Below, piece after piece: positions 1-38,597 of a DNA stretch of 64,000 nucleotides (position 1 is its first letter; each line of letters begins with the position of its first letter). A program made the position numbers and the translations under genes. This stretch comes from Lunularia cruciata (lineage: Eukaryota; Streptophyta; Marchantiopsida; Lunulariales; Lunulariaceae): assembly GCA_948567375.1 (NCBI GenBank), contig OX419755.1, positions 74,280,944-74,344,943 on the forward strand, written 5' to 3'. The notes beneath the pieces were generated by a model. The model made no database searches. It was not told where the DNA came from and saw nothing but the letters and a program-made list of their open reading frames with translations.

Positions 1-122
1 CTGGTTGGGAGATTTGAGTGACATTGTGAGGAAGCGTCAATTCTGCAGAGTGGAGATCTCATGCATGAGGAGTTTGAAATCAACAAAAAGCATGTTTGAG
101 TGTTTAGATTCATCTTGGGAAC

Positions 123-596
123 ATGGAGGGTCATCAAGAGTGGAAATTGAGATTATACAAGGTTCCCCAAGGGTTTGAGGTGATTGTAGGGGTGGATTTG
201 AGGAAAAGAGAGTTTACAATAGAATTTGAAGAGAGTGTTGAGAGGATCCAAAAACCTACACCACATGGAGGAAAGAGTGAGTCTAAGTGCTTTCTATGTA
301 GAGAGAAGGGACATAAGGCAATTTCATGTCCATTGACCTTTGAGAGCAAGAGATTGAGGGAAAGGAGAGGCTTACTTGACTTGGGTTTGCATGTTGGACC
401 TTCTTCACCAAGATTGGGAGGGAGAAGATCTAAGACCAAGGAGTTGTGTGAGGTTTGTGGAGTGGAAGGACTTCCAAAAGGACATGAGTGTAGTGGAGTA
501 AAAGCTTTTTTGGAGAATTTGGTGAAGGATCTTGAAGAGAGTCTTAGTACAACTACAAAAATACTACCACCTTCATCAGCTAGTTCTCAAGATTAG
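123..596 (+). CDS. Zinc-knuckle ORF upstream of gag in element A, function unknown
   Basis: This is a 157-codon ORF starting at ATG 123. It encodes a CCHC knuckle CFLCREKGHKAISCP (CX2CX4HX4C) near residues 56-70 and a second Cys/His cluster, CEVCGVEGLPKGHEC, near residues 109-123. The region between is rich in Arg and Lys, and the C-terminus is Ser/Thr-rich. It lies about 240 bp before gag in a different reading frame, and gag has its own knuckle, so this is an additional nucleic-acid-binding-like protein or a displaced gag fragment. A second open frame (frame 2) runs from base 2 into this region and may be an upstream part separated by a frameshift. I do not recognise the family. It could also belong to sequence that element A entered, because the 5' LTR is not visible. 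Confidence 0.5.
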   Translation: MEGHQEWKLRLYKVPQGFEVIVGVDLRKREFTIEFEESVERIQKPTPHGGKSESKCFLCREKGHKAISCPLTFESKRLRERRGLLDLGLHVGPSSPRLGGRRSKTKELCEVCGVEGLPKGHECSGVKAFLENLVKDLEESLSTTTKILPPSSASSQD

Positions 597-838
597 TGAT
601 GGAGATAATCTTTCAACTTATGGATAAACTATCCATGAGAGTTAGATTAATATGCACTTTAGGATTTGATGTTGCTATAGAAATCTTGGAGCAACCTAAA
701 ACTTTTGTGTTCCCAAGGGTGGATTACTCTCAAATGGTGTTAGTCATGTATATACTCTATTAGTTATAGAGTGAGAGAAAAGAAAAGAGAAAAAGAAAAA
801 GAAAAATTGAGAGAAGAGAAAGATAGTGAGAGGTTAAG
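597..838 (+). other. Element A leader between the zinc-knuckle ORF and gag
   Basis: This non-coding stretch ends in a purine-rich run (about 770-838, mostly g and a) directly before the gag ATG at 839. It contains no LTR end and no recognisable tRNA primer-binding site, so the 5' LTR must lie further left, beyond the window. Confidence 0.4.
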
Positions 839-2116: not shown

Positions 2117-2456
2117 TCACAAGGCTAACATCACAGTGGGCCAATTGATTGCTTTGAACCCTACCTTGAGAAAGGAGCTTAGAGGTGGTTTGAGTTCTAC
2201 AAGGAGCAAGAGGAAGAAGAAGGCAAAAGTTCTAGTATCAATGAGGGTGGTGGATGCCAAGCCAACACCATGGGAGGCTTGTGAATATGCCTCCAAGATT
2301 GATGTGAGAGTGAATGGTCACAACATCAAGGATGCATTGGTTGATGGAGGATCAACAGTGAATGCCATGTCAGAAAGGTTGATGAAGAAGTTGGGTATGA
2401 TACCTTCAAGACCTTCAACATTTATGGTGAGCATGGCAAACAAGCAACAAGTTTGA
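2097..2456 (+). pseudogene. Element A aspartic protease (retropepsin) segment
   Basis: The frame encodes the retropepsin that processes Gag-Pol. The active-site motif is ALVDGGSTVNAM, near residues 80-91, where the canonical triplet D-S/T-G appears as D-G-G. A flap-like region follows. The frame is entered through the 10-bp duplication at 2096-2115, so as it stands it is out of frame with gag. It ends at a TGA (2454-2456) that is one C-to-T step from CGA, and the same frame continues into reverse transcriptase. The D-G-G active site may be family-typical or a mutation; one copy cannot decide. Confidence 0.75.
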
Positions 2457-2465
2457 ACAGTAGGG

Positions 2466-4547: not shown

Positions 4548-4553
4548 AGAGCA

Positions 4554-5399
4554 GTGGGTAAGGAAGAGTCTATCCTACTCATAAAGGAGTTTCATGAAGG
4601 TTTAGTATGTGGAGGACACTTTGCAGGAAAGGTGACTGCTTTCAAGATTCTAGATGCAGGTTACCATTGGAGAAGGATTTTCAAGGATTGTCTTAATTAT
4701 TGCAAAACTTGTCATGTTTGTCAAGCTTTTGCTAGAAAGTCTACATCTACTCCACCACTTAGATCAATTCCATTGCTAGGACCTTTTGAGAAGTGGAGAA
4801 TTGATTTTGTAGGTCCTCTCAATAGAACCCCAAGGAACAATCGATACATTGTGGTAGTTACTAATTACCTTACCAAGTGGGTTGAGGCTAGACCATTGAG
4901 GGACAAGAATGAAGATGAAGTGGGTAGATTTCTTTATGAACGCATTATCACTAGGTTTGGATGCCCTTTGGAGTTGGTTTCTGATAGAGGAGGAGAGTTT
5001 ATAGGAAGCATTACTATAGCCATGCTACGACATTTCTCTATCACACATAGATTAACTACATCCTATAAGCCAAATTCCAATGGCTTGGCAGAGAGAACCA
5101 ATCAGACCTTGTGCATGATGTTGGCCAAAGATGCAGAAATAGAGGGAGCTAAACATCATTGGGACAAGAGGATTCATGCAATTTTGTGGGAGTATAGGAC
5201 AACCATGAAGACTTCCACCGGATATTCTCCATTTCAATTGGTGTATGGTATTCAGTCTACCTTACCTATTCACTTTGATCTTCCTGCCTTCCAAAGCATT
5301 CATAGGAGATTGAAGAAAGCACAAGGAGGTGATGCAGAGAAGTCAAGGAAGGATCAACTCATGGAGTTGGAAGAGGCAAGAGCAGTTGTTATGGTTTGA
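4554..5399 (+). pseudogene. Element A integrase
   Basis: The product is the DDE integrase that inserts the element cDNA. The N-terminal HHCC zinc site is visible as EFHEG...GGHFAG...CKTCHVCQ. The catalytic core shows WRIDFVGPLN (first Asp), LVSDRGGEFIG (second Asp) and NSNGLAERTNQTL (Glu). A typical LVYGIQSTLP segment follows. The frame is the same as the reverse transcriptase before it and the tail after it, separated only by single TGA codons (4545-4547 and 5397-5399). It acts in the nucleus on the reverse-transcribed DNA. No chromodomain is found. Confidence 0.9.
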
Positions 5400-5666
5400 G
5401 TGGAGCAAGCCCAAAGGAAAAAAAAGGAGAGCTATGACAAGAGGCAAGGCAAGAAGAAGGTGGAGACTTTCAAAGAAGGTGATTGGGTAATGTTGTTTGA
5501 TTCCATTCGATTCAAGAGAGTGCAAAAGAAGTTTTTGCCTAAGTACTTTGGACCTTTCATAGTGGAGAAGGTGTGGGGCAATTACACCTATGATCTCAAG
5601 GAGTTGGGAGGAAGACACTTTGATAGGATTAACCATGATAAGTTGAAAATGTACCATAGAAGGTAA
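5400..5666 (+). pseudogene. Element A integrase C-terminal (GPY/F-type) tail
   Basis: This continues the integrase frame after the TGA at 5397-5399. It has a KKVETFKEGDWVMLFD strand and the GPF motif in KYFGPFIVEK, the GPY/F module found after the catalytic core of many Ty3/gypsy integrases. It ends in KLKMYHRR and a true TAA, about 45 bp before the polypurine tract. The terminus has no chromodomain, which separates element A from element B. Confidence 0.8.
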
Positions 5667-5700
5667 AGAGACCTTCACTTTGAGGACAAAGTGAAAACTT

Positions 5701-5714
5701 AGTCCGGGGGTAAA
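5701..5714 (+). other. Element A polypurine tract
   Basis: The sequence agtccgggggtaaa directly precedes the TG that starts the 3' LTR, the position where plus-strand DNA synthesis is primed in LTR retrotransposons. The assignment follows from position and the G-run. Confidence 0.65.
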
Positions 5715-6405
5715 TGTAACACCCATTTGTGCATGTGTGTGGTATTGTGATATTTAGCTTGGTATTACAAGTACTTAAGAGATATTATTTATATAGAGAT
5801 AAAGGATGATTCTACATTAGTCATGATTAGCTAAAGTAAGTCATAGCTAAGATAGAGGAGACCTTACTTTAGAGGAAATAGAAAAGATGAGCACCACTAT
5901 TTTGGATTTAGTGTGTTGACTTGGTATTATTCCTAGGTGTTTGGCTTTGAGGAAAGAGTTGAGAACTCTTGGGCCCGCAAGCCTTTTTGTTTTGGATTCT
6001 TCTTTAGTCCAAGGATAGCCCATGTAAAGGAATCCTTGACTTAGTGGTTGGGTCAAGATAAGACCACATGCTTAGGGGAATATGCCCATGTGAATAGATA
6101 TTCCTTTCTACTTTTTGACTTTACTTGACTTTTAGTCTAGTAACTTGAGTTACTATGGTAATTAGTAACTTTGGTACGTAACTATTTCACAAGTATATAA
6201 ATAAGAGGTGAGGAGGTACTCATCATCCTTTCATTTGCAACTATCTCTCTCTCATTGAGTTCTCTAGTGAGCAATGTCTTGAGTCTTGGAGTGTTAGCCT
6301 TGGAGGAGTATGATGGAGTTTGGGTTCCTTGTCTTCTTAGTCCATGGTGCGCTACCATAATAGCCATCAGAGGTTCATCCTGAGTGAGAGACAGGCCGGC
6401 TCACA
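5715..6405 (+). repeat. Element A 3' LTR (691 bp)
   Basis: The LTR starts tgtaacaccc and ends ggccggctcaca, so it has TG...CA ends. The solo LTR at 34975-35665 has exactly the same length and nearly the same sequence, and 37902-38593 is the same LTR inverted, which fixes both boundaries. A TATA-like box (tatataaat, 6194-6202) lies about 200 bp before the LTR end, the expected place for the transcription start of R. The bases after 6405 read directly into minus-strand element B integrase. Confidence 0.9.
6194..6202 (+). promoter_or_regulatory. TATA-like box in element A LTR
   Basis: The motif tatataaat in the 3' LTR is retained, with small changes, in both solo LTRs. It is the likely core promoter of the family; in the 5' LTR it would drive the genomic RNA. 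Inferred from sequence only. Confidence 0.5.
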
Positions 6406-7160
6406 ATCCCACCTCTCTTGCTCTTCTAAGGTAAAGCCGTGTAACATGTCTTCAATTGTGCAATTAGCCCGCTCTATTTGGCCATCTATTTGTGGGTGGT
6501 AAGTTGTGGACATAGCCAACTTGGTTTTGAAGGAACCAAAGAGTGTTCGTCAAAACAAATTGGTGAATTGAGTGCCTTTATCTATGATAAGTACTCTAGA
6601 CAAGCCATGGTGAGAGAAGACTACATCTAAGTATAATTGAGCTAGTTGTGGAGCGGTGACATCCTTGGTGGTAGGGCGTACATGAATCATTTTGCTAAGC
6701 CAATCCACAAAGACCACAATGGAGTCAAACCTTGAGGTGGTCTTGGGTAGTTCACAAACTAGATCCATACTCACTTGTTCCTAATGTTGGGTAGGTGTGG
6801 GGAGAGGTTGAAGGACCCCGGCATGAGCTTGATTAGAGGCTTTGTTTTGTTGACAAAGTAGGCAACTGTGCACATAGTCCATCACATCATTGCTCATCTT
6901 GGGCCAATAGTAATGGCGCTAGACTGCATCCAAGGTCTTGTCCACTCCGACATGACCTTTAATGGCCGAATCATGACATTTTGCTAGAATGGTGGTGCGT
7001 AATTTTGGGGCAATTGGGATCCATAATCTACCATCACAAAAGGTGAGTCCTTGGTGCTGGTGACGCCTTTGGATGATTGTGCTTCTACAATCTACGGATT
7101 AGTTTTTGTAGCAGCCAAAATCTTTGGCCAGAATTCAAGGTTAATCTTAACCTCTACCAC
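6406..7160 (-). pseudogene. Element B copy 1 integrase fragment
   Basis: On the minus strand this encodes the integrase zinc region and catalytic core, with stops and frameshifts. The clearest part is 6550-6774, which reads MSMDLVCELPKTTSRFDSIV and continues to a LIIDKGTQFT-like second catalytic segment (canonical D-R-G). The final E-bearing segment (GQTERAN-like in copy 2) is visible only in nucleotide alignment near 6460-6490. It is truncated by the element A insertion. Confidence 0.8.
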
Positions 7161-7169
7161 CAAGTTGTT

Positions 7170-7783
7170 TGCCATTGGCATGCGGGTAAATGCATCTGCA
7201 AGTTGCTTCTTACCTTCCACGTAGGTGATTGACATGTTGAAGTGTTGTCGTCACTCTGCTCACCAAATCTGGTGATGAGACAGATCCTTCTGCGTCTTGA
7301 GGTAGACTAGAGGTTTGTGGTCTATCTCTACTACAAATGCCTTCTCACCCAAATAGTGCTTCCAATGCTTGGTTGCCAGAACAATGGCCAGCTCTTCTCA
7401 TTTGGTGGTGTGGTATTTGCGCTCTATTGGTAACAACTTTCAAAGAAATATGCAATTAGATGCCATCCGTCATGCCACTCTTGTTGTAGGACTACTCCTA
7501 TTACTACGCTTGATGCATCTATAGCCAATTTGATTGGTCATTTTGGGTCATACCACTTGAAGATTGGTGCATGTAGCAAGGTGGCTTTCAATTCTTGAAA
7601 AGCCAACTCTTGTGTGGTTCTCCATGTCCACTTCTTCTCCTTGCCAAGTAGTGCCGTTAAAGGCTGTGCAACCTTGGAGAAGTCCTTGACAAATCTATGA
7701 TAGAATCCCATCAACCCCAAGAAGCTCTTGAGTTGAGTCTGATCTTCTAGGGCACGCCATTTTGAATTAACCACAAGGTACAT
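7170..7783 (-). pseudogene. Element B copy 1 late reverse transcriptase and RNase H
   Basis: Frame 7538-7783 on the minus strand carries DQTQLKSFLGLMGFYHRFVK and the PLTALLGKEKKWTW segment, which lie after the polymerase active site. The RNase H region follows to about 7170 with several stops. Its upstream edge is abnormal: the gag-side sequence is joined directly to this region near 7768-7772, so the palm motifs are missing. Confidence 0.8.
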
Positions 7784-7799
7784 TTATTGGCAATCTTTA

Positions 7800-8860
7800 T
7801 TTTCCAAAGTGATTTCCACCTCTTCTTCTTCAATGCGCCTCTCCATGTTGTTCAATGATTGCATGTATAAAGGCCGAGGGCCTCTAGGGAAAATGAGTAC
7901 AACAATTGGTAGATATGTGCCCAATACCGCCACAATTGTAACAACGGCATTGTTCTCCTTGTGGGACTCTATCTCTTTGTTCTTCTACCCGTCCATGCTC
8001 TCCTTGAAGCGGTCATGCTCCTCAATCTTGAAATTGAAGGTTGCCCAATTCCATCGGTACTGGTCCACCTATGTGTGGCATTTCTACCCAATAATGTTGA
8101 GGTAGAACTACTCCTTCACCTCCACCCAATGCTCCTATTATTCTCTATGCACAAGCAATGGCTTCAAATACCGTGTGGGGATTTTGCACCATGACTTCTT
8201 GGCAAATCCGCTCCTTAAACTCTTGTTTGAAATTATTGAGAGCCTTTGCTGGACTCATGTCAGTTATTGCGACTTGTAGATCCAGAAACGCCTCCACATA
8301 CTCTTGTACGCTATTCTTATGTCTCAATCCCCATAGTCAAGTTTCAGTCATTTGCACAGAATCCACCGATTGGAAATTCTTCAGCAATCCTTCTTGCATT
8401 GTTGTCCACGTGACCTCCCTTCTCTCTGCCAATATGGACCATTCTCACACATCATACCATGTGCGGGCTTTATCGATCAAGTACCCACATGCAAACAAGC
8501 ATGCAGCATGCTGCATGATCTCTATTGAGAACAATTGGAAATATTGATTCATTCTCGAGATCCAATTTTCCACTACTCCCATCATATGTTGCCCCTTGTA
8601 AGGCTTGATGTTGCAAGTCTTCTTCATCCGGAGTAGCAATGTGGCTTCATTGTTGATAGGGTTTGTAGCACAAGTGCCTCTCCAAGTACTTCCGTCATAG
8701 GTATTGGGTTTTGAGACGGCTCTTCTTCTTGCATGGCTTGATCGTTCCTAAGGATTTGCACTTGACTTTGTAACGTCTCCATGGTCATCTTAATCTCTCA
8801 AAATTCATTCAACATCCCTTGCATTCCTTGCACCAACTCTTGTAATTGCGGATCCATGAT
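7800..8860 (-). pseudogene. gag: Element B copy 1 Gag relic
   Basis: Minus-strand frames 8445-8639 (MKKTCNIKPYKGQHMMGVVE) and 8145-8327 (MRHKNSVQEYVEAFLDLQVA) are pieces of Gag matching those of copies 2 and 3. A zinc knuckle can be traced in the reverse complement near 7905-7950. The ATG equivalent to that of copy 2 is near 8856. Frameshifts and stops break the frame several times. Confidence 0.75.
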
Positions 8861-8885
8861 TCATGCAACACTCAATTGCTAATGT

Positions 8886-9354
8886 CTACTTCAATATAGA
8901 GTCAATATGATCACTCTGGAAGGCAAGAACTATTGAAACTACCATTGGGAGCTCAGAAGCTATCACTTGTTGATAATACTCCTTGCCGAAATTCCTAACC
9001 ACAAAATTTCTAAACATCACTTTTGGTCTCACTACATAATGGATTTCTACTTGAGTGTTGAAAGGGAGAGGATTTGGGACATTCACATCCATATTATCAT
9101 AATAGAATGTAGATTGTCAAGTCTCACTCTCTATCATATATCACCAAAGGTAGAATCACTGAGTTTGGTGAGTTCATCACCCTATCCATGAATTTTGCGC
9201 CAAAGTGATAAACTAGCGATACCCTCATTTGCTCACATTGGATGTACATAGCCTTGATGTGGAATGGATTTGGGAATGGAAAGCTAGGTGCAAGGAATTG
9301 TCCTCCCGTGCATCCATCACGTCTGCTCTCTAAAGTCCTTCCTAAGTCTAACAA
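8886..9354 (-). pseudogene. Element B copy 1 leader ORFs (possible SPFH/band-7-like fragment)
   Basis: Two minus-strand frames (9124-9354 and 8886-9092) lie between the primer-binding site and gag and recur in all three B copies. The second contains VEIHYVVRPKVMFRNFVVRN and FGKEYYQQVIASELPMVVS. This resembles the later half of SPFH/band-7 domains, where a hydrophobic-Y-x-VRP strand is followed by a yyxxVI..E helix. That resemblance is from memory and is tentative. In this copy the Gln in the last stretch is intact, whereas copy 2 has TAG there. Confidence 0.4.
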
Positions 9355-9447
9355 TAACTCAATTTACTATTCTCCACCTCAAATTACTCAATTTTAGTAG
9401 TTTGTGCTCTTCCAAGAGGTATGATCCACTCTCTTGGACTAAGACAC

Positions 9448-9461
9448 TTGCTCTGATACCA
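9448..9461 (-). other. Element B copy 1 primer-binding site (tRNA-Met)
   Basis: The minus strand reads tggtatcagagc immediately after the LTR end. This is the common plant LTR-retrotransposon site complementary to the 3' end of initiator tRNA-Met. The same site is present in copies 2 and 3. Confidence 0.85.
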
Positions 9462-9462
9462 T

Positions 9463-9657
9463 TGTAATACTCCTAGGACAAGAGAAGAGAGAAAACACAT
9501 ATTACACACTCAACATTTGGTTTTTGCTCTATTAGTGGAAGTACTCTTTTGGTGATACTTCTATCTGATCTATTTTGACTATCATGTATAACATCCTTCT
9601 AGATGTTACCAAAACAAATTTCATATCTAGATCATATGGCTAGCTTGTGGTATTACA
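9463..9657 (-). repeat. Element B copy 1 5' LTR with large internal deletion (195 bp instead of about 740)
   Basis: The minus strand starts tgtaataccacaagctagcc and ends ctaggagtattaca, so both termini are present. About 545 bp in the middle are missing, including the second sub-repeat and the TATA region. The junction (near 9511-9520) joins caaaaaccaaa to tgttgag, consistent with a deletion at a short caaa microhomology. This copy would have lost its promoter. Confidence 0.85.
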
Positions 9658-9689
9658 TAAGCACATCATAAGCAGGTTTGGTGGTTGAA

Positions 9690-10395
9690 TCCCATCATAA
9701 GCACATTATAAAACCTTTGTAGGTAAAAGGTTCATCCACCATAGACAAATACAATGAGCCCATGATCCCACTCTAGCTACATCCAACAACATGGCAAGTC
9801 CCATCCAAGAATGGACTTGATGTGTACTTGCTACACCTGGGTGCAAGAATCACCCATCAAAGTGACATTCTCCAAAATGTAATCTATAGAAAGGGATTGA
9901 TTAATGAACTTGGAGATATCATAGTATATGTAACATATCCCAAAACACACCAAAATAGAGATCCTAAAGACCTTGACCTTGACCTTGGCCAGCATGAGTA
10001 TGTCCTTGACATGGCTATCCAAAAATCACCAAAAGAATAAGACCATATCTCTCCAAATCCTACACCCCCAACAAAGAAATGTAAGTTGGTAGGGTCTTTT
10101 GGTAAACTCTAATTGTTGAAATTGGTAATAACTCAAGATACCAATAGGTCAAGTATGTCACATGATATAGAGAGATTCACTTAGCATTCTCATCTCTGTC
10201 TACATACAAGTACCTTTGTATTTGTATATTTGCTTGTAATATCACAACTAGTCCAATTTTAATTCCACCTCCAATAGACATATTCTCTCTATTGGATACT
10301 GGCAAGCAATGAGTGTGGTATCCAAAGGTGAAAATGTGATAGACTCCAAAGGCTCATCTTCACACTAGTCTCCTAGTGGTACAAAGGCTCCACTC
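9690..10395 (-). pseudogene. Cytosine-5 DNA methyltransferase-like domain in element C
   Basis: On the minus strand, motif I is visible as GGIKIGLVVILQ (10269 downward), the degenerate form of a FGGIGTGL-type S-adenosylmethionine loop, followed by RYLYVDRDENA at the place of motif II. Motif IV with the catalytic Cys is PCQGH (10014-10000), preceded by TAG where Trp is usual and followed by AGQGQGQGL. Motif VI is ILENVTLMGDS, with ENV at 9872-9864. Spacing I to IV (about 85 codons) and IV to VI (about 47 codons) fits C5 methyltransferases. The domain is spread over two or three frames with several stops, so it is dead. The target-recognition part would lie beyond 9690, where the LTR of B copy 1 cuts in. 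Confidence 0.72.
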
Positions 10396-10648
10396 CAAGC
10401 TTGTTGCACCAATTGATTTGCATGTTGTTGCAATGCCTCCATAGAACTTCACAATGGAACATCCAATGTGGATGGAACAATCCCACTTGTACTCCAAATC
10501 TGAGTGATCTCCTCTGGTACTAGAGTATCCTCTACATGTACATTCTCCTCCAATAAGTTATTAGGCCAAGTAAAAGAAGTGATGAAAGCTAGATATGATG
10601 TTATGGTCCTTGACTATAGTGAGCCAAGACTATAACTACTAAAGCATA

Positions 10649-11365
10649 TCAATAGGCAACACACCCATCCTCACTTGATTTCCAACCTAATCTATAGGAG
10701 GTTGTCTCCTCCCAATATTCAATACCAAAATCCATGGGGTATAACATTGCTCCACCAACAAGCATATCATATGACTCTACTATTATTGCAATGGCTTGAG
10801 CTCTCACCATGGAGTTATCAGTCGGATGGCCAAGTTGAATTTGGACAATGAGTTCTCTGCATGTGATATATTGTGTAGAACTACCCCTAGAGATGTCTAG
10901 ATCTGAAATAGACACCTCTTCACATAAGTCTTCCATAGCTCTAGATTGAAAATGGCAGCTTTCTCCAGCATAAGGAGATGCACACCAGAGTCTAGTAAGA
11001 CTCTAGTGTGTAATAAGAGTCTAATAAGACTCTAGTGTATAGACATTCCCTAAAGGTCCCACCAAATGGAAAACTCTCCTTTGGTTATCCAATAAGAAAA
11101 CTCCAAGTGTGAACCACACTTGCTCAAAGGCAAGTCTAGGTGGTAACTCTCCCAATCTAGTAGTTATTGCTTGCCATAAACCATGAGTTGTTGAGCGGAT
11201 CCCATACACCTCAACCATATTAGCTCTACTATCAACCACCTCTGCTCTAGTAGTAGGAACCAAATCATCCATACTCTCACAAAGTGTGGCAACCAACCAA
11301 GACATTAGAGCTAGGTCAACTCCCAATGTAAACATATCACTTGCTGAGAATAAAGGGAAGCGCAT
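10649..11365 (-). pseudogene. Element C retropepsin region
   Basis: Minus-strand frames 11021-11365 and 10649-10936 flank a short stretch in which VLLDSGVHLLML (DSG at 10984-10992) supplies the aspartic protease active site. The second frame contains ESYDMLVGGAMLYPMDFGIE and then YWEETTSYRLGW. I recognise this as the flap and C-terminal part of a retropepsin found in some plant retroelements, where it precedes a methyltransferase. A small local duplication of the sequence around agactctagtgt (10985-11040) separates the frames and probably caused the shift. Confidence 0.6.
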
Positions 11366-11559
11366 AATTAACTAAGCCACCCCCAACATTGTGCTAGACT
11401 CAATTTGTGTAGTAGTAGGTGGTTGACTACCATCTAGTCTACCGTGCACTCCATCACCACCTACCACATCTACACTTGGACATTTAGGAGCCATGGATTT
11501 CATTTATAGTGCCTCAAAGAGTGTGAAAGATTGGGGGAGTCTGACCTATCTACTAGCCT

Positions 11560-12960
11560 CTTCCCTTTATAAGTTCAACTCCATTGATGCTTCTTTAGGC
11601 TTTAGATCATATACTGCACTCCTAATCACTATGGTAGATACATCTACTTGTGCTACTTTGCACATAAAGCCCAAGATATCTTTATCACCAACATAAGAGG
11701 TGGAAGCCTCAACACCCAAATCTGATCTCCTTTGAGCTATGGCCATACTAGCTAATCTTTGCTCCAATTGCTCAATCCAAGTAGCCATGGTTGTATTAGA
11801 AGCAAGAGTAGTTACTTTGTCTCTATTAGGTGTGAATCCTCTACAACCTCTTCTTCCATGGCCTAGAGCTCTTTTACCACTTGCCATAGTAGCCCTACTA
11901 CTCCATAACTCTAGGTAAAGGTCAAAGCATTGGTCACTATTGTGACCAAATCTGTGTTAATGGCCATATTGTCTCAATGTTGGTTGTGGTGCACATCATG
12001 TTTGTTGCCCTGAGTGCACTCTCTCTTGTGGCAAGGTCCACCACAAGTCCAACAAACAACACCACCAACTCACTAGCTATTCCTAACATGAAAATGAAGG
12101 TAGACGTCTAGCTATTCTAGATCCTCCACTCGTTCCATAGGATCTAGGCTATCCATTATGTCCTCAAAAGCCAACATAGCATGGTGCACTCTATTGCACT
12201 CTAAAAGAAGTAAAAGTTGAAGATGCAGTCTCCCTACCAAATCCAAATATTACCACTCTCTCCTCCACCATGTTGAGCTCAATACACTCATCTAAACTAA
12301 AGACCATTGCCAAAGTAGGTGAAGTAGCCTATAACAATGTAGCATCATGTACTCTATATTGCAACTCTCTGTCCAAGATCCTATACTAAAATTGGAGTAG
12401 TTTGGCCTTAGTAACTCCCTAAGTGAAACTGATTAGTCATCTCATTCAAGTGTATACCTTGCATAGGCTCTTTCTAGCCTTCCATTAGAACTTTGACAAG
12501 CTCTTCCACTTGTCATTCTACACTACTTGGTAGTTTAGCCTCAAGCACTAGAAGAACTCCACCATGGGGTTAAACCATGGTACTACACCACCTCCACTTG
12601 TAGTAGCCCCATCTCCAACTAGTGCACCTCCATTAGATCCACCAATGCTACTAGAGCTAGAACTTATGGGTATTGTAGATCTATCTCTAGCAACCAAGCT
12701 TGAAGTGATGGAGTTATAGTTTGGAGACCAATATTGTCTTCATAGCTTGATCTCCTCCAAGTGAGCTCTCTTAAAATCATGATAGTCATCCATTGGTGGA
12801 CCCTCTAAGTGCTGAAACAACCTTTCCATGCCATGAAGGGTGTGAACAAAGTTGGGTTTTGTATTTATTGTAGATCACACCAATTATCAAACTCTTGGAT
12901 GAAGTCATCCAACTCAACGGTATTCATTGTACTAGAGAAGCACTTGGGGCTTTTGGAGGC
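11560..12960 (-). pseudogene. gag: Element C Gag remnant with Cys/His knuckle
   Basis: Translating the minus strand gives fragments typical of Gag: an EFDDFIQEFDNW-like segment near 12900 and GRLERAYARYTLE near 12480-12440. A knuckle CWTCGGPCHKREC (12016-12054) follows, spaced CX2CX4HX3C, so it is one residue short of the standard CCHC. Frame 11567-11887 follows with a helical IEQLEQRLASMA segment. The reading frame is broken repeatedly, and I assign it as Gag from layout and knuckle. Confidence 0.5.
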
Positions 12961-12999
12961 CCCAAGCCCATAAATCTTGTCCATATCTCACAACAACGA

Positions 13000-13666
13000 C
13001 CTGCAAATACACCAAGTGCACTCTCAACTAAATCAGCTCGTATATCAAACTCCAGATCATAATCAATCTCATCACTCATTTGAACTTGAGATACAAATTG
13101 AAACCAAGTGCAACTTTGGGTAAACCCATTGTGTATTGCAGTGCTATATTATCTAGAATCCCCCAAGAACTCTATCATGAAAATGTAACTCAAACCGCAA
13201 TTGTAACCACCACAAGTACCCCACCAAGGATCACCACCAAGTGCCAACACCAATTGAATACCACCCACTAATGTAGCTCTAGTTACAACAACTACACTAT
13301 GAGAAAGGGTGACCTATAATTTGTCATCATAGCATGCGCTCTCATGATCTACAAGTCAACACTTCTTACCTCATCAAAGAAAAACACATGTAGTCTAACT
13401 AGTCAGCACTCCAACCTCACTATTGAGAGCCTACCAAGCATCAATGCTCTAAATTCAAGACACCTCACACAAACATGATGTATAAATAGGAAGCAAAGAA
13501 TAGAGGGGATCCAATCACAAGAAGTCTAAATGAAACCTTTTGTCTCATAAATCAACACCGGATTGACTCTACCATCATTTGGCATTTGACATAATAGGAG
13601 TGTCTACCTAATTCCTAAACTATCAAGATTACCAAGAATGGGATCAAATGCCTCTCCTAGCCAAAG

Positions 13667-13734
<68 letters not shown>

Positions 13735-14704
13735 ATGGAATAATCACTAGGACAACAAGTGAAGGTGGACCCATTTGGTTAGGGTCCAAATATGTGAGGT
13801 CAAACCAAGATGCGCATAATCTAGAAAGGTGGGCATATTTTGCCAATCAATAACCAAAAACTCATCTAAACTAGCTAGACTCATTCCAGCAAGTTGACCC
13901 TTCTAGCCAACCATAAGTCTATACTTTAAATGCCAAACAAGGCCTTTCTTCTTGCCAATTTGAATCCTCTCCAAATCTGGCCAACTCAAGCACTAGGTAG
14001 GGCAATTTGAGCAAAATCCAACTCTAGGCAACCTCAACTACCTTAACGCATCTCTTCTATAGTTAGCTTACCACCAAATCCTTCACTAAATCTCAACTTG
14101 AGCCAAATTGGAATAATGAGGATCTCCAAATCTCTAGTTCAAGGAGATTGGTTCCCTATTCACCTTCAAGTTTTCATTTTGAATTCAATTCACACCAAAT
14201 CAACCTTGATTTCACTTCCAAGGCTCATTTTGAAAACTCATTGTCACTCATTGTCTCAAATTGGCTCCATTCTTAGAAATTTGTTTGGCACTTCTGCATA
14301 CGGTGTGCCACATTGCCAAATCTACATCAAATCACACACAGCTTCCGGATATAATCACTCTTAAGAAAATCTGAACTACATCTAAAGTACCAACAACCAG
14401 CCATGCTTGGAGATACCACCAACACCCTTAGTTTTTGCATTTAATTCCCCCTTAACTCTCATTTCTTTGATGTAGTCGGTTCTTTTTTCCACTCAAATCA
14501 CACTCAAATCAAGGATCTACTCAATCCTTCATTGATCTATCTGCCAGAAATTGAGCACTAATTATAGTCAAGCTACACTCACTCTACCTAAGAGACTCTA
14601 AGTGAGAATTACCAGCCTCTGTCCACCATAGCAAAGAACTTGAAGGCTCAACATCAAAGAAATGAGCTCTCTAGAGTTGCACTTTGAAGGTATACCCCTT
14701 TGCT
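13000..14704. other. Flanking sequence left of B copy 2, no recognised gene
   Basis: This stretch is compositionally like decayed retroelement sequence, with many short open frames and no family I can identify. It may hold the 5' region of element C (minus strand) and the 5' part of the decayed A-like element that resumes at 21316. It contains the (TA)n microsatellite at 13668-13732. Confidence 0.4.
13668..13732. repeat. (TA)n microsatellite, about 32 units
   Basis: An uninterrupted run of alternating t and a. The open frame through it (repeated Ile-Tyr) is a product of the repeat, not a gene. Confidence 0.97.
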
Positions 14705-15450
14705 TGTAATACCAAGAGCTAGCCATATGATCTAGATGTGAAATTTGGTTTAGTAACATCTAGAATGATGTTATACATGATGATCAAAATAGATCAGATA
14801 GAAGTATCACCAAAAGAGTACTTCTACAAATAGGGCAAAAACCAAAATAGACTTGAGAACCTTAGAACCAATAGCTAGACATATGATTTAAAGGTGAGAA
14901 TTTGTTTGGTAACATCTGGAAGGATGTTACACATGATGGACTAAACATATCAGAAAGAGGTATCACCAAAAGGGGACTTCTACTAATAGAGTAGGAACCA
15001 AAATATGCCTTCAATCTTTGAAGGCAATTTTGGAGGCCTAAACGGATGAATTAGGCCTTGAAAATGTGCAAATTCCCCCCCCCCTGCCCCAACTAAGGAC
15101 AGGCTGGCCTTCCCTCCCCATGCTTTGTCTCGTCGAGAGCTTTCCAACAGTACCTTACTCATGTGATTCTGAGATTCCTACAAGAAGATTCCCTAAAAGA
15201 TTCCCTCTGGTCAAAGCTTGTTTGACCAACCAGATAGGACCTAGACAAGACATGTCACCCACCCAAGTAAGTAATCCAAGGGTGGAGCTTGCTGACATGT
15301 CACCTATCTGTGTCCCTAATCCTATGGTGGAGCTTCCTTGGAGGAGATCCTCTTTGTCTATATAATAAAGAGAAGGTGCTCCCTTGGGGCATCAAATGTT
15401 TGAGTATGCAATCTGTGTTTTCTCTCTTCTCTTGTCCTAGGAGTATTACA
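14705..15450 (+). repeat. Element B copy 2 5' LTR (746 bp)
   Basis: The LTR begins tgtaatacca and ends gagtattaca. The first 320 bp consist of two diverged tandem sub-repeats with a period of about 156 bp, each with a tagct/caag start, a gtaacatct...gatgtta core and a tatcaccaaaag element. A TATA-like box, tatataataa, lies at 15359-15368. A C-run near 15078 differs from the 3' LTR. Otherwise the two LTRs differ at only a few positions by eye. Confidence 0.93.
15359..15368 (+). promoter_or_regulatory. TATA-like box in element B LTR
   Basis: The motif tatataataa is about 80 bp before the LTR end and is conserved in the LTRs of copies 2 and 3. It is the likely start of R and of the genomic RNA. 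Copy 1 has lost it by deletion. Confidence 0.5.
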
Positions 15451-15451
15451 A

Positions 15452-15464
15452 TGGTATCAGAGCA
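15452..15464 (+). other. Element B copy 2 primer-binding site (tRNA-Met)
   Basis: The sequence tggtatcagagc follows the LTR end after one base and matches the 3' end of plant initiator tRNA-Met. It primes minus-strand DNA synthesis. Confidence 0.88.
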
Positions 15465-15558
15465 AGTGTCTTAGTCCAAGAGAGTGGATCATACCTCTTG
15501 GAAGAGCACAAACTACTAAAATTGAGTAATTTGAGGTGGAGAATAGTAAATTGAGTTA

Positions 15559-16029
15559 TTGTTAGACTTAGGAAGGACTTTAGAGAGCAGACGTGATGGA
15601 TGCATGGGAGGACAATTCCCTACACCTAGCTTTCCATTCCCAAATCCATTCCACATCAAGGCTATGTACATCCAATGTGAGCAAATGAGGGTATCGCTAG
15701 TTTATCACTTTGGCGCAAAATTCATAGATAGGGTGATGAACTCACCAAACTCAGTGATTCTACCTTTGGTGATATATGACAGAGAGTGAGACTTGACAAT
15801 CTACATTCTATTATGATAATATGGATGTGAATGTCCCAAATCCTCTCCCTTTCAACACTCAAGTAGAAATCCATTATGTAGTGAGACCAAAAGTGATGTT
15901 TAGAAATTTTGTGGTTAGGAATTTCGGCAAGGAGTATTATCAACAAGTGATAGCTTCTGAGCTCCCAATGGTAGTTTCAATAGTTCTTGCCTTCTAGAGT
16001 GATCATATTGACTCTATATTGAAGTAGAC
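15559..16029 (+). pseudogene. Element B copy 2 leader ORFs (possible SPFH/band-7-like fragment)
   Basis: Frame 15559-15789 encodes 76 residues (NPFHIKAMYIQCEQMRVSLV and following). A second frame from 15821 encodes MDVNVPNPLPFNTQVEIHYV and then RPKVMFRNFVVRNFGKEYYQ, ending at a TAG where copy 1 has CAG. The two frames are offset, which suggests one broken protein of about 150 residues. Both are also present in copies 1 and 3, so this segment was part of the family's founder. The similarity to SPFH/band-7 proteins is my pattern recognition and needs a profile search. It is not a standard gag or pol part. Confidence 0.4.
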
Positions 16030-16055
16030 ATTAGCAATTGAGTGTTGCATGAATC

Positions 16056-17170
16056 ATGGATCCGCAATTACAAGAGTTGGTGCAAGGAATGCAAGGGATG
16101 TTGAATGAATTTTGAGAGATTAAGATGACCATGGAGACGTTACAAAGTCAAGTGCAAATCCTTAGGAACGATCAAGCCATGCAAGAAGAAGAGCCGTCTC
16201 AAAACCCAATACCTATGACAGAAGTACTTGGAGAGGCACTTGTGCTACAAACCCTATCAACAATGAAGCCACATTGCTACTCCGGATGAAGAAGACTTGC
16301 AACATCAAGCCTTACAAGGGGCAACATATGATGGGAGTAGTGGAAAATTGGATCTCGAGAATGAATCAATATTTCCAATTGTTCTCAATAGAGATCATGC
16401 AGCATGCTGCATGCTTGTTTGCATGTGGGTACTTGATCAATAAAGCCCACACATGGTATGATGTGTGAGAATGGTCCATATTGGCAGAGAGAAGGGAGGT
16501 CACGTGGACAACAATGCAAGAAGGATTGCTGAAGAATTTCCAATCGGTGGATTCTGTGCAAATGACTGAAACTTGACTATGGGGATTGAGACATAAGAAT
16601 AGCATACAAGAGTATGTGGAGGCATTTCTGGATCTACAAGTCGCAATAACTGACATGAGTCCAGTAGAATCTCTCGACAATTTCAAACAAGAGTTTAAGG
16701 AGCGGATTTGCCAAGACGTCATGGTGCAAAATCACCACACGGTATTTGAAGCCATTGCTTGTGCATAGAGAATAATAGGAGCATTGGGTGGAGGTGAAGG
16801 AGTAGTTCTACCTCAACATTATTGGGTAGAAATGCCACACATGGGTGGACCAGTACCGATGGAATTGGGCAACCTTTGATTCCAAGATTGAGGAGCACTA
16901 TCGCTTCAAGGGGAGCGGGGACGGGTAGAAGAATGAAGAGATGGAGTCCCACGAGGAGAAGGGACTCGAGGAGAACAACGCAGTTGTTACAATTGTGGCC
17001 GTATTGGGCACATATCTACCAACTGTCGCACTCGTTTCCCTAGAGGCCCTCGGCCTTTGTTCAGGCGATCTTTGAACAACATATAGAGGCACATTGATGA
17101 GGAGGTGGTGGAAATCACTTTGGAAAATGAAGATCGCCAGTATATGTATCTCACGGCCTTACTGGCTCAA
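16056..17170 (+). pseudogene. gag: Element B copy 2 Gag
   Basis: The ATG at 16056 starts MDPQLQELVQGMQGMLNEF, then a TGA follows. Later pieces are 16274-16468 (MKKTCNIKPYKGQHMMGVVE) and 16586-16768 (YVEAFLDLQVAITDMSP). A CCHC knuckle CYNCGRIGHISTNC lies at 16985-17026. This is the usual plant chromovirus Gag layout, broken by several stops and frameshifts. Confidence 0.82.
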
Positions 17171-17248
17171 TAAGGAAGCAGAGAAGCAAGGGAAGGAAGA
17201 AGAATAATGCACAACGATCCCGAAAGGCAACCTCACCATTGATTTGTC

Positions 17249-17611
17249 ATGAATGGAATCCTAGAAGGTAATCAAGTGAGAGTATTAATAGATCCAGGAG
17301 CAACAGAGAATTTCTTGTCTCACTCTGTTGCAATAAGATTGGGAATGGATTTAGAGAGAGATGGAAGTGAAGAAGTAGAGTTACCAAATAGGCAAACAGA
17401 GAGGATTGAATCATTACCTAGACGGGTAACCCTCTTTGTAGGAGAATATCAGGAAGCAATTGAGTGGCGAGTGATACAATTAGCCCCTTATGATGCAATT
17501 TTAGGCATGCTATGGATAGAGCAGTACAACCCTATGGTGGATTGGAGGAAGAAATTAGTGAGAACCCACCAATGGTCAATCATTGGGGTTAAAGAAAAAT
17601 CACATAGGTAG
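17249..17611 (+). pseudogene. Element B copy 2 aspartic protease
   Basis: The active-site region reads RVLIDPGATENFLS near residues 11-24. The common form is D-S-G-A, so the second residue is Pro here. Further on, APYDAILGMLWIEQYNP is the usual C-terminal retropepsin strand and helix. The segment follows the knuckle and precedes reverse transcriptase. Copies 1 and 3 have lost it by deletion. Confidence 0.8.
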
Positions 17612-17668
17612 AAACTACCTCTATATGTCGTAGGGACGGCAACTGTCTGTAAGACCAATAGATGTTTT

Positions 17669-18640
17669 ATGGGTCTAATAAGAGAAGTCCAGAGTGCACA
17701 ACTCGATGGAAAAATTCCTAAGAAATTGAAGAATGTGGTGGATGAGTTTCAAGATGTCTTTCTCGATGATCTACCCTCAGGATTACCACCAAAAAGGCAA
17801 GTAGATCACAAAATTGAGACACTTCCGTGGAAGATGCCTCCTTGTAAGGCCCCATATCGCCTATCACCTCATGAGTTGGAGGAGTGTAAGACTTAAATTG
17901 AGGAGATGCTGCAGAAAGGGTTCATCCAACCTAGCATATCACCATATGGGGCCCCTGTCTTGTTTGTGAAGAAGAAGGATGGTATAATGCGCATGTGCAT
18001 TGACTATTGGGGTCTCAATCAGCAAATAGTGAAGAACAAATACCCCTTACCTCGCATGGATGACCTGTTTGATCAACTCCATGGAGCGAGATACTTCACC
18101 AAACTGGACTTGCGGAGTGGTTACAATCAAATCCAAATGGCAAAGGAAGATGTGCACAAAACTGCCTTTTGAACCAAGTATGGCCACTTTGAGTATCTTG
18201 TGATGCCTTTTGGCCTCACCAATGCACCTGCCACTTTCATGAGCCTAATGAATGACATATTTCATCCATACTTGGATAAGTCTGTTATCATCTTCTTGGA
18301 TGATATCTTAGTATACAGTAGCATGATGACATAACACAAACAACATCTACAAGAGGTCCTCCAAATTCTAAGACAGAATCAGTTGTACACCAAAATCTCA
18401 AAGTGTGAGTTTGGCAAGTCCAAAAGAGGCTACTTGGGGCATAGAGTAAGTGCAAAGGGCATTCCAGTATTTACAGATAAAATAGAGGTCATTCAAAAAT
18501 GGAGTGCCCCAGAAGATCAGACTCAACTTAAGAGCTTCTTGGGGTTGATGGGATTCTATCGTAGATTTGTCAAGGATTTCTCCAAGGTTGCACAGCCTTT
18601 AACGGCACTACTTGGCAAGGGGAAGAAGTAGACATGGGGA
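17669..18640 (+). pseudogene. pol: Element B copy 2 reverse transcriptase
   Basis: Visible motifs are [40 protein letters not shown] (usual form IDYR, so Arg has become Trp), [11 protein letters not shown] with the first catalytic Asp, [14 protein letters not shown], and [11 protein letters not shown] with the Asp pair. FLGLMGFYRRFVKDFS follows. Stops at 17894-17896, 18170-18172, 18334-18336 and 18629-18631 break the frame, but the frame itself is mostly kept, so decay has been mainly by point mutation. Confidence 0.88.
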
Positions 18641-19160
18641 ACTGCACAAGAGTTGGCCTTTCAAGAATTGAAGGCCGCCTTGCTACATGCACCAATCTTG
18701 AAGTGGTATGACCCAAAACGTCAAATCAAGTTGGCTATAGATGCATCAGGTGTAGCAATAGGAGCAATCCTACAACAAGAGTATCATGACGGATGGCATC
18801 CAATTGCATATTACTCTCAAAATTTGTTACAAGCAGAGCGCAACTACCACACCACAGAACAAGAAGAGATGGCCATCATTCTAGCAACCAAGCATTGGAA
18901 GCACTACTTGGGCGAGAAGGCATTTGTAGTAGAGACAGACCGCAAACCTCTGGTCTACCTCAAGACGCAGAAGGATCTATCTCATCGCCAAATTTGGTGG
19001 GCAGAGTAGCGACAATGCTTCAACATGACGATCACCTATGTGGAAGGTAAGAAGCAACTTGCAGATGCATTCACCCGCATGCCAATGGCCAACAACTTGG
19101 TGGCAGAGGTTAAGATTAACCCTGAATTCTGGCAAGAGATTCTGGCTGCTACAAAAACTG
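18641..19160 (+). pseudogene. Element B copy 2 RNase H
   Basis: The frame 18653-19009 carries IKLAIDASGVAIGAILQQ with a catalytic Asp, HPIAYYSQNL, an EMAIILATKHWKHYL helix and FVVETDRKPL with a second catalytic Asp. It ends at a TAG (19007-19009) inside the usual RQ.RW segment, then resumes in the same frame with VEGKKQLADAFTRMP. Confidence 0.85.
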
Positions 19161-19189
19161 ACCCATAGATTGTATAAGCACAATCATCC

Positions 19190-20210
19190 AAAGGTGTCAC
19201 CAGTACCCAAGGACTCACCTTTTGGGATGGCGGATTATGGATCCCAAATGTCCCAGAATTACGCACCACCATTCTAGCAGAATGTCATGATTCGGCCATC
19301 GCAGCTCATGTCGGAGTGGACAAGACCTTGGATGCAGTCGAGCGCCATTACTATTGGCCCAAGATGAGCAACGATGGACTATGTGCATAGCTGCCTACTT
19401 TTCCAACAGAACAAAGCTTCTTATCAAGCTCCTGCAGGGCTCCTACAACCTCTCCCCACTCCTACCCAACGTTGGGAACAAGTGAGTATGGATCTTGTTT
19501 GTGAATTACCCAAGACCACCTCAGGTTTGACTCCATTGTGGTCTTTGTGGACCGGCTCAGCAAAACAATTCATGTACGCCCTACCACCAAGGAGGTGACC
19601 GCTCCACAACTAGCTCAATTATACTTAGATGCAGTCTTTGCTCACCATGGCTTGTCTGGAGTACTCATCACCGATAGAGGCACCTAATTCACTAGCTTGT
19701 TTTGGCAAACACTCTTTGGTTTCTTCAAAACCAAGTTGGCCATGTCCACAGCTTACCACCCCCAAATAGATGGCCAAACAGAGCGGGCTAATCGCACGAT
19801 TGAAGACATGTTACGCGGCTTCACCTTAGAAGAGCAAGAGAGGTGGGACACCCTACTCCCGTTGGTGGAATTTGCTTACAACAATTCAGTGAATGCATCC
19901 GCCCATGTCACTCCATTCTTCCTCATGTATGGTGAGCATCCCTTCACACCTTCTAGCTTGATGAAGATCCGTCTAGTGGCTACCAAGGTCGATGCAGTCA
20001 ACACATTTGTTTCTAGAATCCAACAAGATGTGGAGAGCGCCAAGCACAGATTACAAATTGCGCAAAATCGACAAAAGCAATATGTTGATACACCGTTGGC
20101 ACATGGAGTTCAATGTTGGGGATCAAGTGTGGCTATCGACAACCAACCTCACCTTAGTTGGACCTCGTAAGCTCAGACCTCGTTTTATTGGGCCTTTCTT
20201 GATTCTTCGT
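19190..20210 (+). pseudogene. Element B copy 2 integrase
   Basis: The zinc region (H...H...C...C) is visible around 19280-19420, and is better kept in copy 3. The core is seen as MDLVCELPKTTS (first Asp), the ITDRGT segment (second Asp, ending in TAA where Q is usual) and HPQIDGQTERANRTIEDML (Glu). Frame 19697-20170 covers the last part of the core. Several frameshifts separate the pieces. Confidence 0.85.
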
Positions 20211-20545
20211 TGCATCAGCGCTGTGGCCTATCACCTTGAGCTACCACCACACATGAAGATCCATCCAATGTTCCATGTCTCCCTACTATGCAGATATGCT
20301 CCCCAATCAGGCCAAGGTCATTCCACACCAGACATTCAACCTTGTCCGACACTCATTGATAGCACAGAGGAATATGAAGTGGAGCAGATTCTCCAGAAAC
20401 GCATGCGTGGTACTCGCCACCCACCGGTGGACTATCTAGTACAATGGAAAGGTTACCCCCTCTATGAAGCCACCTAGGAGCCCACTGCCAATTTGGCACA
20501 TGCACCTGTGTTGGTGCAAGCATTTGAGCAACAATTGCACAACGA
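20160..20545 (+). pseudogene. Element B copy 2 integrase tail and chromodomain
   Basis: Frame 19992-20477 gives the integrase C-terminus (LRPRFIGPFLI, GPY/F-type) and HPMFHVSLL. A chromodomain follows from about 20365: EYEVEQILQKRMRG, then VDYLVQWKGYP with the aromatic residues of the methyl-lysine cage. The Trp of the WEP motif is TAG (20475-20477). Chromodomains steer integration of chromoviruses to marked chromatin. Copy 3 has lost the segment by a clean deletion. Confidence 0.85.
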
Positions 20546-20559
20546 GGACGTTGCGTCTT

Positions 20560-20574
20560 AAAAGGAGGGAGGTC
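20560..20574 (+). other. Element B copy 2 polypurine tract
   Basis: The purine run aaaaggagggaggtc directly precedes the 3' LTR and is conserved as aaaaggggggaggtc in copy 3. Confidence 0.75.
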
Positions 20575-21315
20575 TATAATACCAAGAGCTAGCCATATGA
20601 TCAAGATGTGAAATTTGGTTTAGTAACATCTAGAATGATGTTATACATGACGGTTGAAATAGATCAGATAGAAGTATCACCAAAAGAGTACTTCTACAAA
20701 TAGGGCAAAAACCAAAATAGACTTGAGAACCTTAGAACCAATAGCTAGACATATGATTTAAAGGTGAGAATTGGTTTGGTAACATCTAGAAGGATGTTAC
20801 ACATGATGGACTAAACATATCAGAAAGAGGTATCACCAAAAGGGGACTTCTACTAATAGAGTAGGAACCGAAATATGCCTTCAATCTTTGAAGGCAATTT
20901 TGGAGGCCTAAACGGATGAATTAGGTCTTGAAAATGTGCAGATTCCCCCTACACCTTTGGATGAAAGGCTGGACTTCCCTCCCCATGCTTTGTCTCGTCG
21001 AGAGCTTTCCAACGGTACCTTACTCATGTGATTCTGAGATTCCTACAAGAAGATTCCCTAAAAGATTCCCTCTGGTCAAAGCTTGTTTGACCAACCAGAT
21101 AGGACCTAGACCAGACATGTCACCCACCCAAGTAAGTAATACAAGGGTGGAGCTTTCTGACATGTCACCTATCTGTGTCTCTAATCCTATGGTGGAGCTT
21201 CCTTGGAGGAGATCCTCTTTGTCTATATAATAAAGAGAAGGTGCTCCCTTGGGGCATCAAATGTTTGAGTATGCAATCTGTGTTTTCTCTCTTCTCTTGT
21301 CCTCGGAGTATTACA
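20575..21315 (+). repeat. Element B copy 2 3' LTR (741 bp)
   Basis: The LTR matches the 5' LTR over its full length with scattered substitutions and a different stretch where the 5' LTR has a C-run. It begins tataatacc rather than tgtaatacc. The target duplication ttgct follows directly. Confidence 0.93.
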
Positions 21316-22130
21316 TTGCTTGACCTAAGTCTCCAACTCTAATGACACTATGATGGCACATCCAATGATGCAAATGGTACAAGTATAGTGAGTCACACCA
21401 CGTGATTAATAGTCCTAATATAAAATTGAATTGCCAACATGTAGCCCATGAGTAACTACAAACACTACCACTCTAGTGTCCAAGCAACATAGCTTTGGCA
21501 CTACAAATTTCATGACATTGAAGCCACAAATTAAAACCAAAATGAAGTATGCATAGTCATCTTCAAAGGTTGATCTTATCAAAATTGTATTTCATTTGGA
21601 AGAAAAATTAGAAGGAGATGAATCAAATTTTGTTGCTCTTACAAATGTACTAGTTGCTCCTACAAATCTTGGACTTAGAGGAGTATTTCATATTGAAGTG
21701 GTTCTAGGAATAATATACATTGATGCAAAATTGAAGAAAATTATAGAGCAAATAGCAAATATGAAGATCAATATGGTGCAATGTAGGAGAAAAAACCAAA
21801 ATGTTGGAAGACTTCTTAAAGTGTATGAAATTACACACCAAGGAAAAATGGAGCTCAAGAATAGCCTATATATAATTGATCCACTTGCTTTCAGTGTGGA
21901 AGCAATTCTCATTTGATAATGTTTTGCTCAAAAGCTCCAAATGGTTGAAGGAGAAAGAATTAGCCTAATAAAGGAAATGGAGGAATGCTTCAAAACTAAA
22001 ATTGAGTTGGTAGATGTGACAAATACTTAGTAGAAATGAGGTGCTCATACTTCAAGAAAGGTGAAACATTAATCCAAGAGAAGAAAAGAGCTAGATTTGT
22101 AGAAGATTTGGAGGCTCCACAATTGACCAA

Positions 22131-38593: not shown

Positions 38594-38597
38594 GATC

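Follow-up and report, generated by a model that had tools for sequence, protein, structure and literature searches.

The closest published system to the one described here is KnitGypsy-Dnmt3, which de Mendoza et al. (2018, PMC5890265) reported as a DNA methyltransferase (DNMT)-carrying retrotransposon of the charophyte alga Klebsormidium nitens; the same report describes two further retrotransposons with a DNMT from dinoflagellates, SymbioDIRS-Dnmt3 and SymbioLINE-Dnmt. For land plants, methylase-encoding transposons are stated to be absent in the text of Morozov et al. (2019, PMC6338049). Here we analyze a 64,000-nucleotide stretch of the genome of the land plant Lunularia cruciata (the window), in which a decayed retroelement carries the remains of a cytosine-5 DNMT. 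From the genes found in its copies across the genome, this element is a high-copy Ty3/Gypsy-type retrotransposon with an in-frame DNMT.

Compared by published description, the Lunularia element shares with KnitGypsy-Dnmt3 a Gypsy-type pol, an internal DNMT3-related methyltransferase with non-rearranged motifs, DIRS-like repeats and, possibly, constraint on the DNMT; it differs in its land plant host, its C-terminal PHD finger and its very high copy number. The enzyme of KnitGypsy-Dnmt3 lies in the Pol open reading frame (ORF), whereas here it belongs to a Gag-protease (PR)-DNMT block with a TAG before the reverse transcriptase (RT). The word PHD is absent from the main text of PMC5890265. SymbioDIRS-Dnmt3 and SymbioLINE-Dnmt are described with DIRS and LINE machinery, unlike the Gypsy-type RT, RNase H and DDE integrase found here. 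In chromoviruses, too, pol closes with a chromatin-type domain downstream of the integrase, but theirs is a chromodomain, whereas three copies of the Lunularia element (L010, L015 and L016; L numbers denote genome loci) have in its place a PHD finger, a kind of domain that commonly recognizes chromatin. The terms methyltransferase and DNMT are absent from the text of a plant long terminal repeat (LTR) element survey (PMC7264820), as are methyltransferase and PHD from that of a second such survey (PMC6317226). In the literature covered, which included few subscription papers and no supplements, we found, among the matches listed, no DNMT retrotransposon of a land plant and no PHD finger on a Gypsy pol. 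New relative to the published elements are therefore the land plant host, the PHD finger on pol, and a DNMT that stands with Gag before a leaky-type stop. Bursts of Gypsy elements have been reported for Lunularia (PMC9985172).

A decayed methyltransferase in the window

An initial annotation of the window had named C5-methyltransferase motifs on the minus strand, after gag and a retropepsin. The motifs read as named. Between 10395 and 9690, GGIKIGLVV (near 10272), RYLYVDRD and PCQGH (near 10014) share one frame, ENV (near 9872) reads in an adjacent frame, and a motif-VIII-like AHCICLWWMNL, which the annotation had not listed, lies near 9756, back in the first frame. The segment (Table 1) aligns with residues 998-1200 of the open frame of a genome copy, L011, at 57% identity, and twelve of the genome loci retrieved are 56-61% identical to its reading with X at the stops, across some 190 residues.

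A phmmer search of 177,635 PDB sequences with the X-at-stops reading gave eight matches at E<=10. All eight are DNMT3A or DNMT3B sequences, and they align along two colinear stretches; the lowest E-value was 0.095, and no match is significant individually. Three further decayed pieces of the same element, used as a control, gave 1, 0 and 0 PDB matches, none of them to a methyltransferase. Scored against human DNMT3A, the segment ranked first among 1152 six-frame chunks of the window (BLOSUM62 score 68 vs 50; phmmer E 0.096), and none of 2000 shuffles reached its score. A frameshift-tolerant scan of the whole window gave 101-102 at the segment and 76 at the runner-up place; none of 400 dinucleotide shuffles attained the score of the segment. 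Chance similarity to a DNMT is excluded by the specificity of the PDB matches, the window scans, the shuffles and, finally, the genome copies. Judged by sequence, a DNMT3-like cytosine-5 methyltransferase lies here in decayed form.

Pfam and NCBIfam profiles found no match at E<=10 in the decayed reading, which Pfam would miss because the copy is old, as its CpG and CHG depletion indicates. The PF00145 (DNA_methylase) match that the annotation had expected is thus missing from the window copy and present, above the cut-off, in the genome copies. Neither the window segment nor a natural DNMT copy of the element found a relative in a collection of viral contigs. The DNMT domain extends to 9664, where a nested LTR element cuts it, and continues at 7645-6961 of L009, the adjoining 10 kb left of the window.

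Copies of the element across the genome

We searched the L. cruciata genome (565.8 Mb in 74 contigs, at least eight of them 60-85 Mb long) with the PF00145 profile, and 2161 first-look candidates were reduced to 123 scored matches, all of them above the cut-off and most spanning profile positions near 48-120. A few of the loci (L001, L002, L003 and L004) are host-type genes. Several matches lie inside open frames of more than 1000 residues, the longest of which, with 1428 residues in both L010 and L011, runs from the gag region through DNA_methylase (E 1.9e-7 and 3.4e-7). The Retrotrans_gag profile scored only below the cut-off in L010 (E 0.07) and L015 (E 0.06) and did not match L011; the zinc knuckle and the retropepsin motif of the genome copies were read by eye. 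The next frame of L010, L015 and L016 contains, in order, RVT_1, RNase H (RT_RNaseH), Integrase_H2C2, rve and a terminal PHD finger (PF00628, E 6.3e-11 to 7.4e-10). All eight long copies have the zinc-ligand pattern of the PHD finger, whose best PDB relatives are the PHD fingers of CHD4, KMT2D/2C, PHF12, KDM5B, DPF3 and PHF21A. Read from end to end, the order of the element is gag, zinc knuckle, retropepsin motif, DNMT, in-frame TAG, RT, RNase H, integrase and PHD finger.

The copies start with TGTCACG and finish with GACA. They have split direct repeats, with A1 at the 5' end and B1-A2-B2 at the 3' end (L010, L014, L015 and L016; A about 450 bases, B 102-110 bases), and L011 retains just 77 bases of A1. 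Target duplications of 4 bp were found in five of the six copies examined, namely GAGG in L016, CATA in L014, ACTC in L010, TAGC in L011 and TCAA in the window copy; L015 has none. A1 and A2 are 99.3% identical in L016 (413 bases), 97.5 and 99.2% in L010 (two pieces), 97.6% in L014 and 89.4% in L015. DIRS retrotransposons use a tyrosine recombinase, whereas this element has an rve integrase, and no recombinase family was found in the six frames scanned.

These copies bear out much of what the annotation had proposed. Gag and retropepsin-like parts do precede the methyltransferase, in one frame with it in the open copies; better-preserved relatives (L010, L011 and others with open frames) do exist elsewhere in the genome; and RT and integrase lie 3' of the methyltransferase in the genome copies, as well as in the window copy when it is followed into L009. 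The in-frame TAG, the PHD finger, the split repeats, the copy number and an enzyme that does not group with host DNMT3 go beyond it.

The host has methyltransferase genes of its own, a DNMT3-like gene with a following DUF3444 (L019; PF11926, 4.6e-8) and a DRM-like gene (L020), and its genome contains 35 matches to Dirigent, a family not known outside land plants. With such genes present, the window segment could have been a pseudogene of the host DNMT3 or DRM, inserted next to a retroelement without being part of it. The genome copies refute this explanation, to which we attach next to no probability: in open copies, of up to 1428 residues, gag and the DNMT share a single frame, the DNMT is linked to the element in all 32 copies read, it stands apart from host DNMT3, and a Pfam scan found no DUF3444 in the frames of the element. 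In DRM, motifs VI-X precede I-V (C-terminal matches to I-IV were seen), whereas the motifs of the element follow the order I-IV-VI-VIII-X, so it is not a DRM.

The stop codon between DNMT and RT

A TAG stands at the junction of DNMT and RT in all 32 copies read, and pol runs on in the same frame right after it (L010, L015, L016 or the flank of L011). The six bases that follow are CAGCCA in 29 copies, CAGCTA in 2 and CAGCAA in 1, and the consensus CAR YYA fits 31 of the 32. In tobacco mosaic virus, read-through is stated to require this consensus after UAG (PMC2754532). The junction motif, with any codon allowed at the stop site, occurs at least 717 times in the genome and 0 times in a backward control; these counts are lower bounds because they are counts of exact matches. 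TAG or TAA occupies the stop site in 709 of the 717, though the codon preceding it varies among the matches listed. The context UAG CAG CCA is of the leaky type, and read-through is likely.

The TAG could instead be a tight stop that a young family has inherited; the DNMT would then simply end ORF1, and pol would be made in another way, for instance from an RNA that is spliced or has its own start. Three observations count on the side of such a stop or against read-through: 19 of the 40 codons around the TAG are equally invariant, which makes its constancy weak evidence; the RNA fold downstream of the stop is not beyond chance; and the window copy has lost the TAG. The retention of TAG or TAA next to a varying codon, the CAR YYA sequence and the uninterrupted frame of pol argue for a leaky stop, and we consider a tight one unlikely.

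Conservation of the enzyme

Among 31 copies, the catalytic PC is kept in 31, PCQ in 30, ENV in 31, LFGGIS in 23, RLR in 24 and GQAMDLN in 29, so that catalytic PC, ENV and RxR are present and in order. In the nine copies whose codons 1-314 contain no stop, the ratio of amino-acid-changing to silent polymorphism (pN/pS) was 0.44 in the domain vs 1.03 in the tail. Variants found in at least three copies had an N/S of 0.74, vs 2.03 for singletons (p=0.008, or 0.018 counting CpG changes). Shared variants are therefore depleted of amino-acid changes, which suggests constraint on the domain during the spread of the family.

Other observations weigh against an enzyme that the family keeps in working order. 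Between motif I and the TAG, just 8 of the 32 copies read have an open DNMT frame; seven of these eight are among the twelve copies from L005-L018 (six taken from the stretches at listed matches, most of them long-framed), and of 20 copies sampled regardless of frame only one has an open DNMT. Six copies (L007, L032, L035, L036, L037 and L047) share a TGA located 174 codons upstream of the TAG, and other DNMT stops also recur at identical codons in several copies. Repeated deamination, or the spread of broken-DNMT copies with help in trans, may account for the recurrent stops, since either would give this pattern. The pN/pS of 0.44 exceeds the value of <0.2 reported for Klebsormidium (PMC5890265). 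Finally, the copies look silenced, with an excess of C-to-T changes at CG, CHG and also CHH.

The domain might also be a DNA enzyme no longer, serving as a structural or RNA-binding part of Gag or acting on RNA. Its place within the Gag-PR block, a divergent target-recognition region, a Pfam DNMT match confined to profile positions 46-120 and the many broken copies would all fit this explanation. The catalytic PC and the ENV, each intact in 31 of 31 copies, do not, and neither do the best PDB relatives, which are DNMT3A/3B, ahead of DNMT2. We therefore hold a loss of DNA methyltransferase function to be quite improbable.

Origin of the enzyme

Against the PDB, a natural DNMT copy matched DNMT3A best (7.8e-10), with HaeIII, DRM2, HhaI and DNMT2 behind. 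DNMT3 with DUF3444 is reported to be conserved in non-flowering streptophytes, DNMT3 being absent from flowering plants (PMC6453930); another report assigns DNMT3 with DUF3444 to land plants and describes algal DNMT3s without companion domains (PMC12344493). Together with the DRM-like gene and the Dirigent matches, the DNMT3-like gene with DUF3444 found here points to a non-flowering land plant as the host. The host-type plant DNMT3 (Yaari et al. 2019, PMC6453930) has a DNMT3-like domain and an unrearranged motif order in common with the element, but it is only about 24% identical to it, has DUF3444 and groups with DNMT3A.

The annotation had suggested a tree with retroelement and host DNMTs; ours was run with the element, one host DNMT3, DNMT3A and seven phage enzymes chosen from top or spread tblastn matches, and in this sampling the element is set apart from the host DNMT3. 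Host DNMT3 and DNMT3A cluster together (0.97, 98%), and the element, itself long-branched, is placed next to a divergent phage enzyme (0.93, 87%), a position that long-branch attraction could produce. Host DNMT3 and DNMT3A are each 24% identical to L011, and the phage enzymes 23-32%. The latter are DNMT3-like C5-methyltransferases, such as those of Pseudomonas phage Epa40 and Roseobacter phage CRP-603; six of the seven are 25-32% identical to the element and that of KashFlow 23%, and, unlike the DNMT of the element, they are free-standing genes with no retroelement. Over motifs I-IV alone, the element is 32-34% identical to host DNMT3, DRM and DNMT3A alike. A recent capture of the host DNMT3 gene is not supported by these comparisons; the source may be old, or of phage or bacterial type.

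A proposed mechanism

We propose, with a probability of roughly 60%, that the window holds a dead copy of a high-copy Ty3/Gypsy DNMT element that would make Gag-PR-DNMT as its main product and Pol by read-through, methylate itself and integrate under the guidance of its PHD finger. Gag-PR-DNMT would most likely be the abundant product, so that the particle would contain about as much DNMT as Gag; Pol (RT, RNase H, integrase and PHD finger) would come from read-through of the TAG now and then. The enzyme would then methylate the cDNA or the fresh insertion of the element, making the new copy resemble resident silent chromatin, as camouflage or as a stable silent state, and the PHD finger would steer the integrase via a histone tail. 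We infer read-through, catalysis, the methylation target, the PHD ligand and the benefit from sequence, and a self-marking or silencing role is what we hypothesize for the enzyme. A more specific proposal is that of a writer-plus-reader element, in which a leaky stop would deliver a non-host, maybe bacterial or phage-derived, DNMT at Gag level and the integrase would carry a histone-reading PHD finger, letting the element select chromatin by its histone state as well as methylate its own copies; this we regard as possible, though doubtful.

The methyltransferase might, on the other hand, restrain the element, methylating its own copies and thereby dampening transcription and insertion damage so that element and host coexist, a possibility raised by de Mendoza et al. 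(PMC5890265). Old copies are indeed strongly depleted of CG and CHG, and copies of the element show the C-to-T excess noted above. The 732-base DNMT part of the window copy contains 0 CpG, and the ratio of observed to expected (o/e) sites in the window element overall is 0.09 for CpG and 0.27 for CHG, vs 0.63 and 1.16 in a gene-like stretch of the window at 52.9-58.5 kb. However, another Gypsy element in the window, element D, has no DNMT and is depleted to a similar degree (CpG o/e 0.10, CHG o/e 0.35). Because other repeats of the window are depleted alike, the depletion reflects general host silencing, which suffices to explain it, and is no mark of the DNMT. A family of at least 717 copies does not suggest strong restraint either, and we judge self-restraint to have a small chance of being correct.

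Whichever role is right, the family comprises at least 717 junction copies, some with terminal repeats 97-99% identical, in a land plant that keeps DNMT3-like and DRM-like genes, and it bears on the persistence, or renewed origin, of such elements after plants reached land. Since open and broken DNMT copies coexist in the genome, a gain to the transposon from self-methylation is testable; for dose and targeting, concrete handles are at hand in the leaky-type stop and the PHD finger.

The copy in the window

The coordinates of the window copy and of the elements nested in it are collected in Table 1. Its putative gag and protease are assigned by alignment to the open genome copies. The gag region is 50-70% identical to the L011 frame, in pieces. 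Searches with the window sequence alone (against Pfam, element D and the PDB) gave no significant support for gag or protease apart from the motif pair LLDSG/YDMLVG, which was found in 0 of 300 shuffles, and the retropepsin-like region itself had no Pfam or PDB match.

Table 1. Positions in the window of the DNMT element copy and its nested elements
Feature	Position	Strand	Remarks
Nested element B2 within DNMT	6407..9663	-	interrupted by element D (1-6405); other LTR end at the resumption of the element in L009
Decayed DNMT3-like methyltransferase, motifs I to VIII	9664..10302	-	corresponds to roughly the first half of the L011 DNMT stretch, which has 434 residues
Motif VI ENV, shifted frame	9864..9872	-	sequence reading; ENV in 31/31 genome copies
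Motif IV PCQG, catalytic-type Cys	10003..10014	-	sequence reading; PCQ in 30/31 genome copies
Retropepsin-like region and linker to DNMT	10266..11100	-	LLDSG near 10998, YDMLVG near 10771; aligned to L011 frame
Decayed gag region, zinc-knuckle-like CWTCGGPCHKREC near 12054	11101..13253	-	aligned to L011 residues 1-871; low stop density
5' A1 repeat, second part	14492..14704	-	76% identical to A2 of L011
Nested LTR element B1 within A1	14705..21315	+	target site duplication TTGCT; LTR pair 95.7% identical
A1, first part; element 5' end at 21517	21319..21517	-	61% identical to A2 of L011, E 4.6e-11; terminus TGTCATG
Target duplication TCAA	21518..21521	.	partner follows element 3' end at L009:3805

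Nested element B2, with element D nested inside it, runs past the left edge of the window, and its two flanks overlap by about 40 bases rather than a clean 5. The DNMT element resumes at 7645 of L009 with the C-terminus of the DNMT, RT, integrase, PHD finger and the repeats B1-A2-B2; pol residues 384-658 are missing, the RNase H part having been deleted. No RT is visible 3' of the methyltransferase in the window because B2 and D interrupt the DNMT and the remainder lies outside. Aligned in two pieces, the terminal repeats of the window copy show 75% and 84% identity, and this copy is therefore much older than copies such as L010, L014 and L016. By these alignments the window copy is full length, with its pol genes beyond the window edge; it is dead, as the annotation had held, being decayed and interrupted by nested elements.

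Another stretch related to the gag of the element, in the opposite orientation, occupies positions 1-726 of L009, immediately to the left of the window copy. Element D, at 1-6405 of the window, has large open gag and RT/RNase H frames despite its CpG depletion, and LTR-like copies of its type are also present at 34974-35666 and 37901-38594.

Other features of the window

Scans of the window for tRNA genes and Rfam families found nothing. Broken RT-like ORFs, probably of a non-LTR element, occupy 46539-49104, with a weak RVT_1 match (E 0.035) at 47306-47773, and a 64-base tandem repeat lies inside the RT-like coding stretch at 47604-47859. Exon-like stretches of a gene, which we take to encode a plant WD40 protein, extend over 52817-58436, where CpG and CHG are undepleted. 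At 41254-41876 there are two head-to-tail copies of a sequence of about 308 bases, 98% identical to each other.
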